Shown piece by piece: positions 40,687-43,574 of a stretch of DNA of 53,837 nucleotides (position 1 is its first letter; each line of letters begins with the position of its first letter). Location of the stretch: NCBI GenBank assembly GCA_007695175.1, contig REEH01000088.1, positions 1 through 53,837 of the forward strand, given 5' to 3'. Made by a program: the position numbers and the translations under genes. The notes below the pieces were generated by a model, which did not search any database, was not told the origin of the DNA, and saw only the letters and a list, made by a program, of their open reading frames with translations. The DNA comes from Spirochaetaceae bacterium. Lineage in GTDB: Bacteria; Spirochaetota; Spirochaetia; DSM-27196; Alkalispirochaetaceae.

Positions 40687-42003
40687 ATGAGGGGAGAAAT
40701 CGCGGCAGGGGTTACAGTCAGACGTCTCGCTCCCGCCGGCCGGGACGAGGTGCTGCGGGTCCTGGTGGACGCGGTAGTCCTTGACCAGGGACTTGACCCG
40801 GAGGACGTTCTGGAGGCGGTGCTCGAGCGGGAATCATCGCTCTCGAGTCGCGTATCGGACCGGATCGCCATGCCCCACGCGATCCTCCCCGGCATGAGAT
40901 CGACGCTCTTCGGCCTCGGTGTCTGCCCGGAAGGGATCAACTGGGATGCCCGGGATGAGGATGTTCAGCTGGTTGTACTCCTGGTAGGACCTGAGGACCA
41001 GCATCTCCCGGTTATGGCCGCCATATCGCGGCTCCTGCAGGCTCCCGGTATCGTGGAGACTATTCTCACGGCACAGTCGGAGGATGAGGTACGCCGGATC
41101 TTTGCCGGGGGTGACGCTGCCGCGGTTCCTCTGGCCGGTCGGACCCTGAGTATCACCGCGACGACGGTAAACCATGCGGTGGAACTGGCCCGGCTGCTTC
41201 CGCTCGATCCGGTGGTCGTCTCCACCAGCAACGCCGGGATCCGTTCCCTGCTCGGCGCCCTGGCGGAGCCCCCGCTGGCACAGCGGACCTTTCTCGTCGG
41301 TCCCGGTCTGGACAGGGAGAACTCCTCCCCGGACGAGATCACGGTGGTATCGACGGATCGCTTCCCGGAGGATCCGCACGGGCCGGCGGCTCTCACCCTG
41401 CTGCCGTTGCTTACGACGGGGGCCATCAAGCCGGGCTCGGAGGTGATTCTGCTGACCGGGCGCAGCGACCAGCGGGGACTTGACGCGGTGCGACTGGTGG
41501 ACGTATCGCGGGAACTCCAGATTCCGGAGGGACTCACCGACTCCCACCTGCCCGAGGGAGTTCGTCTGGATGTGGTGGTCCGCGCTCTGCACCTCACCGC
41601 GGAAATGGGACTGCAGGGGCGGGAGGGAAAGCCGATCGGCACGATAATCGTTATCGGAGACGATCCGGAACTGGATACCCATACCCAGCAGATGATCCTG
41701 AATCCCTTCGCGGGACACCCCGCTCCGGCCCGGAACATCCTGGATCCCAGCCTGGGGGAGACGGTCAAGGAGCTGGCCAAAATCGACGGCGCTTTTATCG
41801 TTTCCGGGCAGGGTACCCTGATGTCGGTGGGGGCGCACCTGGCGGGCCGCCCCGACCCGCGGGAGATGGAGGCGGGTCTGGGCGCGCGTCACGCCGCGGC
41901 ACTGGGGATCACCGCGTCGGCGGATGTACTGGCGATCTGCCTCTCCGAGTCCACCGGAACAATTACGCTCTACTTCAGGGGACGACGTCTGATTCGCCGG
42001 TAG
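40687..42003 (+). CDS. PTS EIIA - PK_C-like - diadenylate cyclase fusion protein
   Basis: A 438-residue protein of three parts. Residues 1-145 match fructose/mannitol-type EIIA (PTS_EIIA_2), with the phosphorylatable His at position 64 in RIAMPHAILP. Residues about 153-290 resemble the pyruvate kinase C-terminal domain (ATTVNHAVELARLLPLDPVV, GAIKPGSEVILLTG). Residues about 305-438 are a DisA_N/DAC domain that condenses two ATP to c-di-AMP: GREGKPIGTIIVIGD, NPFAGHP, DGA at 367-369 and GLGARHAAALGI, ending SESTGTITLYF. The canonical RHR motif is RHA here (401-403). PK_C-DAC pairs are known as CdaZ; the added EIIA would allow PTS phosphorylation to control c-di-AMP. The long open frame upstream is non-coding. 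Confidence 0.87.
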   Translation: MRGEIAAGVTVRRLAPAGRDEVLRVLVDAVVLDQGLDPEDVLEAVLERESSLSSRVSDRIAMPHAILPGMRSTLFGLGVCPEGINWDARDEDVQLVVLLVGPEDQHLPVMAAISRLLQAPGIVETILTAQSEDEVRRIFAGGDAAAVPLAGRTLSITATTVNHAVELARLLPLDPVVVSTSNAGIRSLLGALAEPPLAQRTFLVGPGLDRENSSPDEITVVSTDRFPEDPHGPAALTLLPLLTTGAIKPGSEVILLTGRSDQRGLDAVRLVDVSRELQIPEGLTDSHLPEGVRLDVVVRALHLTAEMGLQGREGKPIGTIIVIGDDPELDTHTQQMILNPFAGHPAPARNILDPSLGETVKELAKIDGAFIVSGQGTLMSVGAHLAGRPDPREMEAGLGARHAAALGITASADVLAICLSESTGTITLYFRGRRLIRR

Positions 42004-42035: not shown

Positions 42036-42066
42036 AAAAAAAAGGCCCCCGGGAGCCGGGGGCCTT
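42036..42066 (-). terminator. Strong terminator of the small lipoprotein gene
   Basis: An 11-bp perfect GC-rich stem (42042-42052 with 42056-42066) has a 3-base loop. On the minus strand an eight-T run follows. It lies 19 bp after the small lipoprotein stop codon and also faces the end of the DAC fusion gene. Confidence 0.9.
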
Positions 42067-42085
42067 GCTGTGGTGGTGTGGAGAC

Positions 42086-42217
42086 TCAGTCCAGAGGCTG
42101 CTCCATCGGAGGCTCTTCCAGGTCGCCTTCCTCGATTGGCTCACAGGCTGCAAACACCAGGGTGAACGCGGATGCGATCACGGCCATCACCAGCAGTTTC
42201 TTCAACAACGTCTTCAT
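42086..42217 (-). CDS. Very small lipoprotein (43 residues)
   Basis: The frame encodes MKTLLKKLLVMAVIASAF, then TLVFAAC and an 18-residue acidic tail (EPIEEGDLEEPPMEQPLD). The lipobox VFAAC is good, so the mature peptide would be a lipidated Cys with only 18 further residues, eight of them acidic. A full AGGAGG ribosome-binding site stands 8 nt upstream, and a strong terminator follows, so this is a discrete, probably well expressed gene and not a fragment. Comparable tiny lipoproteins (entericidin, Lpp-like) act in the envelope, but the sequence is not similar to them. The function is unknown. Confidence 0.85.
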   Translation of the reverse strand: MKTLLKKLLVMAVIASAFTLVFAACEPIEEGDLEEPPMEQPLD

Positions 42218-42314
42218 AACACTACCTCCTCGTAGTTTGTTATCCTCAATGATACGAGGAGAGTATCAACTCCGTTTTTACGCTTCTTCAAGATTCCTTC
42301 AAGATTGTCCTGTT

Positions 42315-43019
42315 CTACCGGCGGTTGCCCAGGAAACGGAGCAGAAAAAGAAAAAGGTTGATGAAGTCCAGATACAGCTTGAGAGCGCCCATGATCGAGA
42401 CCCTGATGTAGTCCGCCTCGTCCGCGTCGGGGCCGAGGTGACGGCTCCAGTTCCTGATGACCTGGGTGTCGTATGCGGTGAGCCCCATGAAGAGAAAGAC
42501 TCCGAAAAAGGAAATCACGTATTCCATGGTGGGGCTGCGCAGAAACATGTTGACCACGAAGGCGATAAGCAGGCCCATGAGCCCGGCGAAGAGGTACTGC
42601 CCCATGCCCCCCAGGTCGCGATCGGTCGTGACCGCATAGACACTGAGTACGGCAAAGGTCCCGGAGGCCACGAAAAAGGCCTGGGCGATACTCGCGGCGG
42701 TGTAGGCGAGAAAGATCACGGAGAGGGTGAGTCCATTGAGAACCGAATAGGTTGCAAAGGCGATCGTCGCTGCTCCGGGACTCATCGTCTGCACGCGGGA
42801 GGACAGGATGAAGACCAGACCCAGCTGGGCGATTATGAGGCCGAAGAAGAGTCCCCGGTTCAGCACAATGGTCCTCACGAGCTGCGGGTTGCTTGCCACA
42901 TACATCGCCACCACACCGGTGATGGCAAGACCGAGGGTCATCCACATGTATACATTCCGCAGAATACTGCGCTCCGCCAGAGCGGCGCGAAACTGTTGTA
43001 CGTTCTCCTGAACAGGCAT
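42315..43019 (-). CDS. Bax inhibitor-1/YccA family membrane protein
   Basis: A 234-residue protein with seven predicted membrane segments. BI-1 signatures include RNVYMWMTLGLAITGVVAMYV at the N terminus, VYAVTTDRDLGGMGQYLF, and GLTAYDTQVIRNW near the C terminus, whose Asp belongs to the proton/calcium leak pore of the family. The C-terminal LKLYLDFINLFLFLLRFLG is diagnostic. The bacterial role is uncertain; YccA relatives interact with FtsH and others leak Ca ions. GGAGG precedes the ATG. Confidence 0.95.
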   Translation of the reverse strand: MPVQENVQQFRAALAERSILRNVYMWMTLGLAITGVVAMYVASNPQLVRTIVLNRGLFFGLIIAQLGLVFILSSRVQTMSPGAATIAFATYSVLNGLTLSVIFLAYTAASIAQAFFVASGTFAVLSVYAVTTDRDLGGMGQYLFAGLMGLLIAFVVNMFLRSPTMEYVISFFGVFLFMGLTAYDTQVIRNWSRHLGPDADEADYIRVSIMGALKLYLDFINLFLFLLRFLGNRR

Positions 43020-43121
43020 CGTTATTCCTCCGCGAATAAACTACTACCCTGCACGAAAAAGTCAAGATCCCGGAATATCCTCCCGATCCAGGATAACCGT
43101 GATACACTGTGTGCAGGGACT

Positions 43122-43574
43122 ATGGAAACGATGGTGTCGGAATCCACCTGGCCTTCTCGCGGAGAAACGGTGCTGCACCGGGCGTTCTGTCATGAGAGTC
43201 CTTACGCCGTGGTGATAGCCGACGCACGGGGCCGGACGATAGAGTGGAACAGGGCGGCGGAGCGTCTTACCGGCATACCGCGGGAGGAGGCGTTATCCCT
43301 GGAGGTATGGCAACTCCTCGGACGGATCGCGCCTGCCCGCATACCCTATGAAGTTGCCGTTGAAGCAGGGCGATCCACCTTCCGGGAGGTGATGGACATG
43401 GCGCTCCTGAGCCGCCATGAGGGGATTTACCGGGAGGCTCCCGTTCAGCGGCGGGACGGACTGATACTGTCCACCTCCGGTAAACTGCTTCATCTTACCG
43501 TCGATTTCTTCAGCTTCTGGGCCGACGAGGAACCTGCGTTTGCGGTCTGTGCTACCCGCGTAGTGCCTGCGTGA
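43122..43574 (+). CDS. Single PAS-domain protein
   Basis: A 150-residue protein consisting of one PAS domain (ESPYAVVIADARGRTIEWNRAAERLTGIPREEAL, then a helical connector and the beta-sheet end LHLTVDFFSFWADEEPAF). There is no output domain, so it must act by binding another protein or a ligand. The long open frame upstream crosses the BI-1 gene and is spurious. The ATG at 43122 lies shortly after TGATACACT, an extended -10 sequence also found before tkt. The 3' end overlaps the convergent aminotransferase gene by 23 bp. Confidence 0.85.
   Translation: METMVSESTWPSRGETVLHRAFCHESPYAVVIADARGRTIEWNRAAERLTGIPREEALSLEVWQLLGRIAPARIPYEVAVEAGRSTFREVMDMALLSRHEGIYREAPVQRRDGLILSTSGKLLHLTVDFFSFWADEEPAFAVCATRVVPA

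Follow-up and report, generated by a model that had tools for sequence, protein, structure and literature searches.

A fused EIIA, pyruvate-kinase-C-like and DAC protein of several bacterial phyla as a putative PTS-controlled diadenylate cyclase

A single gene at positions 40687-42003 (forward strand) of the window – the whole stretch of 53,837 nucleotides analysed here, from a Spirochaetaceae bacterium – encodes an EIIA domain, a middle domain resembling the C-terminal domain of pyruvate kinase, and a diadenylate cyclase (DAC) domain. We propose that the product is an active diadenylate cyclase of the DacZ/CdaZ type with an EIIA-Ntr-like receiver at its N-terminus, through which the phosphotransferase system (PTS) would control c-di-AMP synthesis, a reading to which we give a probability of roughly 0.65. 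The catalytic and phospho-acceptor residues of the protein are intact, and its genome contains a full EI/HPr phosphorelay.

How the level of c-di-AMP is set is a long-standing question, and the inputs recognised so far come largely from partner proteins, GlmM and CdaR among them; in this family an input is likely written into the protein itself. If so, carbon and nitrogen status would be tied, in several phyla that have received little study, to the messenger governing potassium and osmolytes. Natural variants are also on offer, with Tyr, Gln, Ser or Cys at the phospho-site or with no EIIA domain at all. DAC domains, DacZ, the pairing of PK_C and DAC, and EIIA switches are already known, and DacZ_P is listed in Pfam as a 'probable sensor domain'. 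The new elements are a phospho-acceptor histidine (His64) conserved throughout the family without a conserved donor histidine, the status of the gene as the sole DAC in one order of Opitutia, an account of its RHA motif as a trait of the DacZ clade, and the parallel loss of switch and PTS. In the literature covered by our search there was no description or test of an EIIA-DAC fusion, and the architecture may already be catalogued in the survey of DACs by Galperin (2023; 'All DACs in a row').

Domain architecture, distribution and locus

The gene has 438 codons plus a stop, and full-length relatives exist. The 698-aa frame in the list of open reading frames begins upstream of the ATG at 40687, and both homology and the AlphaFold model support a true start at this ATG or close by. 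The EIIA domain spans residues 1-142 (40687-41112) and matches PTS_EIIA_2 at residues 19-139 with an E value of 1e-20 (74.6 bits, relative to a Pfam cut-off of 27), a profile also matched by 30/30 members of family set A1. It is followed by a low-confidence linker (residues 143-150; 41113-41136; pLDDT below 50 at 143-147), the pyruvate-kinase-C-like or DacZ_P middle domain (residues about 151-280; 41137-41526), and the DAC domain (residues about 290-438; 41554-42000), matched by Pfam at residues 308-433 (E 4.8e-19; 68.5 bits, cut-off 27). The middle domain of the protein itself falls below threshold for DacZ_P (E 0.1) and is identified by its fold and by its relatives, whose middle domains match DacZ_P in 58 and PK_C in 13 of 69 cases.

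The full-length AlphaFold model has a mean pLDDT of 84.6 with confidently predicted domains, and its pTM of 0.58 leaves their placement relative to one another uncertain. The EIIA part finds its best structural match in EIIA-Ntr (1a6j; Z 20.5, rmsd 1.8 over 141 residues), and the DAC part matches the structures of CdaS, CdaA and DisA at about Z 14-17. A model of the middle domain built from 69 relatives (pLDDT 83, pTM 0.80) is matched by pyruvate kinase C-terminal domains with a Z of 12.6 over 120 residues. All three domains that the earlier note had read in this gene are thus real, and the AMPHA and RHA motifs that it pointed out, with His64 in the former, are present.

Relatives are widespread. 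All 100 of the 100 relatives searched match somewhere, often in the EIIA part alone, and about half give long matches spanning both ends of the fusion. At least 431 relatives emerged when named genomes were scanned; the 80 that were kept are assigned to Spirochaetota (including Alkalispirochaeta), Opitutia and other Verrucomicrobia, Kiritimatiellae/Pontiellaceae, and Fibrobacterota/Chitinispirillia, together with single records labelled Deltaproteobacteria and Brocadiaceae. The same domain order recurs in Spirochaetota, Opitutia/Kiritimatiellota and Fibrobacterota, and the fusion is conserved over several phyla and is no oddity of a single species. One Chitinispirillum (Fibrobacterota) MAG carries two copies of the fusion, one with His (L064) and the other with Gln (L108) at the phospho-site.

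The locus shows synteny at the level of the genus, with murA, thrC, and genes for HD, lipoprotein-like and Bax1-I proteins, an aminotransferase, and hisA. Operon context was considered as a guide to function and rejected because these conserved neighbours are functionally unrelated; the usual upstream gene in Opitutia is one that we take, judging from its sequence, to resemble NuoA. No mscS neighbour of the kind present in Haloferax was seen among the neighbours of the fusion, and neither an Rfam element near the gene nor a sigma-70-like site for it was found. Just past its stop codon is a strong GC-rich hairpin (42042-42066) whose T run lies on the minus strand, likely the terminator of the convergent Bax1-I gene (42315-43019, minus strand). 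A frame at 42078-43574 (plus strand) matches PAS domains in its C-terminal part, at residues about 368-448 (E 1e-6), and the gene itself probably starts far into this frame.

Elsewhere the window genome encodes four HPr domains and several EI-type genes, one of them an HPr-EI fusion frame. It also has a separate canonical CdaA (GTRHRA) followed by a YbbR (CdaR-like) gene, so the fusion would be a second cyclase in this organism. Candidate downstream parts are TrkA-TrkH, an RCK channel, and possibly a 324-aa DHH/DHHA1 protein that scores weakly to NrnA and may be a c-di-AMP/pApA phosphodiesterase.

Cyclase residues and sole-DAC genomes

Three motifs mark the DAC active site in an alignment of 109 proteins. 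DGA lies at residues 367-369 (41785-41793), GARHA, the equivalent of GTRHR, at residues 399-403 (41881-41895), and SEST at residues 420-423 (41944-41955), corresponding to the SEET metal/ATP motif of CdaA (PMC12974146). D367, G368, G399, R401 and H402 do not vary, A369 varies once, and S420 and S422 (108/109) are absent only from one truncated sequence. In Leptospira CdaA, neither D172, from the DGA motif, nor the initial R of RHR is dispensable (PMC12974146), and the corresponding residues are among those that are invariant in the fusion family. The third position of RHR is different: residue 403 is Ala in 83 proteins and Thr in 16, with Ser and Val also occurring (A, T, S or V in 107/109 altogether), and just two proteins have Arg. 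At the same place, GTRHH is the reading in two haloarchaeal DacZ proteins, and H. volcanii DacZ, a member of the haloarchaeal DacZ family, makes c-di-AMP (PMC6741144).

Among 103 genomes of the order to which a Puniceicoccales symbiont (Opitutia) belongs, 93 encode a DAC domain; for 88 of these 93, the only DAC is the gene that the fusion profile recovers, whether or not its EIIA part is present. Were this enzyme inactive, those organisms would have no c-di-AMP. Taken together, the invariant residues and the sole-DAC status indicate that the fusion protein is almost certainly active as a diadenylate cyclase.

DacZ paralogs without an EIIA domain were also seen (L226, L227 at 192-1085 on the minus strand, L228 and L229). 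They are about 300 aa long, have DGG for DGA and read GSRH; L227, the one scanned, consists of DacZ_P and DAC by Pfam. Such paralogs occur beside a full-length fusion in three genomes (G209, G234 and G243) and alone in a fourth (G194).

The EIIA histidine and loss of the PTS

The predicted phospho-acceptor His64 (codon 40876-40878, within IAMPHA) aligns with the active-site PH of EIIA-Mtl (1a3a) and is present in 103/109 relatives across phyla. The second EIIA histidine, which in sugar EIIA serves transfer to EIIB (PMC13104625), corresponds to His106 (codon 41002-41004) and is not conserved, with His in 61/109 and Tyr in 36/109. This combination points to a regulatory receiver EIIA and not to a component of transport.

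EI is present in 48 of 50 named carrier genomes, and the two that lack it are reduced Puniceicoccales genomes in which His64 is replaced by Tyr. A wider test was confined to the Opitutia order, whose genomes are mostly MAGs, so that absence of EI or HPr may represent an assembly gap. By the criterion of EI, 61/70 genomes with EI retain His64 within a complete EIIA, versus 7/20 without (Fisher p 1e-5, kinship ignored); by that of EI and HPr together, it is kept in 58/67 genomes with both versus 3/12 with neither (p 4e-5, again with kinship ignored). Put the other way round, His64 or the whole EIIA domain has gone from 9/12 genomes lacking both EI and HPr versus 9/67 having both. Tree-aware tests on the gene's own tree (middle and DAC domains), allowing one extra rate of His loss, gave p 0.006 for dependence on EI and HPr, and, for EI alone, 0.009, or 0.003 with four doubtful genomes left out; the fitted loss rate in the absence of the PTS exceeds that in its presence about 8- to 12-fold, and the general correlated-evolution test with 4 degrees of freedom gave p 0.056. 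Several genomes near 0.8-1 Mb have lost the EIIA domain wholly while retaining DGA or DGG and RH.

A strict rule tying every loss of His64 to loss of EI was also considered, and is broken by a clade of five related genomes (L204, L207, L215, L216 and L221) that have Tyr64 and an intact EIIA fold together with EI and HPr; this clade may represent a constitutive form. Position 64 is Ser or Cys in three more genomes that have EI as well as HPr, four Fibrobacterota copies carry Gln although EI is present, and several genomes lacking EI retain His64. In three reduced genomes of about 0.8-0.9 Mb (L165, L166 and L169) without EI and HPr, His64 is still there, reflecting either a recent loss of the PTS or another phosphodonor. 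The association is thus real but moderate. Shedding of His64 or EIIA in PTS-less genomes in which the DAC core is intact supports phosphorylation of His64 by the PTS as a regulatory input.

Proposed regulation and relation to known systems

HPr~P would phosphorylate His64, and the phosphate would go no further to any EIIB. DAC chemistry requires two DAC domains placed head-to-head, and GlmM inhibits CdaA by blocking this pairing (PMC8573169); phosphorylation of His64 could act on pairing, by altering how EIIA packs against the pyruvate-kinase-C-like domain. In PTS-Ntr, PEP-derived phosphate on a histidine reports carbon and nitrogen state (PMC13104625). Lineages without PTS or EIIA keep the cyclase as their only DAC, so the enzyme must be able to work unphosphorylated or without EIIA, and on this argument we lean slightly towards phosphorylation restraining the enzyme rather than licensing it. 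On that view c-di-AMP would rise when the PEP:pyruvate ratio is low or the PTS is actively carrying flux, with effects on potassium and osmolyte targets such as RCK_C proteins, and the middle domain may supply an additional metabolite input. Nutrient status would probably control c-di-AMP directly, with sugar or nitrogen as the presumed signal. The earlier note's proposal of a PTS input to c-di-AMP synthesis gains from the conservation of His64 across phyla and its tendency to go with the PTS; its accompanying doubt about the RHA motif does not hold up.

That doubt, that the DAC domain is catalytically dead and the protein a sensor of c-di-AMP or ATP, draws on the missing third Arg, on the loss of activity when RHR of M. 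tuberculosis DacA is changed to AAA (PMC3328451), and on the canonical CdaA in the window genome. We rejected it as very improbable, since DGA, G-x-R-H and SxS show little or no variation, non-Arg residues are the rule at position 403, haloarchaeal DacZ reads RHH in a family with a member that makes c-di-AMP, and the fusion is the sole DAC in most Opitutia genomes examined. Still more remote is the view that this EIIA passes phosphate on to an EIIB as a genuine sugar-PTS component and that its fusion is incidental: the NCBIfam models for fructose IIA and PtsN do score it about equally (43.9 and 42.1 bits), but both scores are far below their own cut-offs, the second histidine is not conserved, and no EIIB or EIIC gene lies among the annotated neighbours.

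The other two alternatives accept an active cyclase and differ as to its input. EIIA could be mainly a docking or structural element, for example for TrkA/RCK or KdpD partners, with phosphorylation of His64 hardly affecting catalysis. Unphosphorylated PtsN works in this manner, through contacts with the potassium transport regulators TrkA and KdpD and with YcgO (PMC13104625), the window genome encodes TrkA and an RCK channel, and some clades with a complete PTS lack His64 and yet keep the EIIA fold; against this, His64 but not the second histidine is otherwise conserved, and loss of the PTS is accompanied by loss of His64 or EIIA more often than expected, leaving docking a possible but rather unlikely explanation. 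Alternatively, the pyruvate-kinase-C-like domain could be the principal input, sensing a glycolytic metabolite, with EIIA only fine-tuning. This domain has the pyruvate kinase C fold, is common to archaeal DacZ/CdaZ and is retained where EIIA is lost, and pyruvate kinase C domains bind fructose-1,6-bisphosphate (PMC6741144). It is, however, the least conserved part of the protein, with zero invariant columns in 69 sequences and hence no apparent conserved ligand site, and we regard this as unlikely too.

We therefore prefer control of an active cyclase through its EIIA receiver. More broadly, it seems somewhat probable that the PTS phosphorelay sets c-di-AMP synthesis within one polypeptide across Spirochaetota, Opitutia/Kiritimatiellota and Fibrobacterota, in one Opitutia order through the only cyclase. 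Two separate regulators of potassium and osmotic balance, EIIA-Ntr and c-di-AMP, would have been merged, and PTS-less lineages would have kept the cyclase and shed the switch.

EIIA-type domains are fused to output modules in other proteins, such as PRD transcription factors, where EIIA likewise serves as an intramolecular phospho-switch; the output of the present fusion would be second-messenger synthesis instead of transcription. The EIIA domain shares with EIIA-Ntr (PtsN), its best structural match, the conserved phospho-histidine, the absence of a conserved donor histidine and the regulatory logic, and differs in being joined to a cyclase and in scoring 42.1 bits where the PtsN equivalog TIGR01419 has a cut-off of 138.7. 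With the membrane cyclase CdaA (DacA) the protein has in common the DAC fold (about Z 15-16) and the same catalytic D and first R, whereas EIIA and the pyruvate-kinase-C-like domain replace the CdaA_N transmembrane domain, RHA stands for RHR, and the score to TIGR00159 is 32.1 bits against a cut-off of 188.8. DacZ, DacY and CdaZ (Haloferax volcanii DacZ and Methanocaldococcus jannaschii CdaZ) have the same order of a PK_C-like N-terminal domain and then DAC. The top NCBIfam model is haloarchaeal DacZ (NF041371; residues 245-429), its 77 bits being far from the equivalog cut-off of 430, and haloarchaeal DacZ and the fusion both keep DGA and both lack the third Arg of RHR. The fusion is distinguished from these archaeal enzymes by being bacterial and by its additional N-terminal EIIA domain with a conserved phospho-acceptor histidine.
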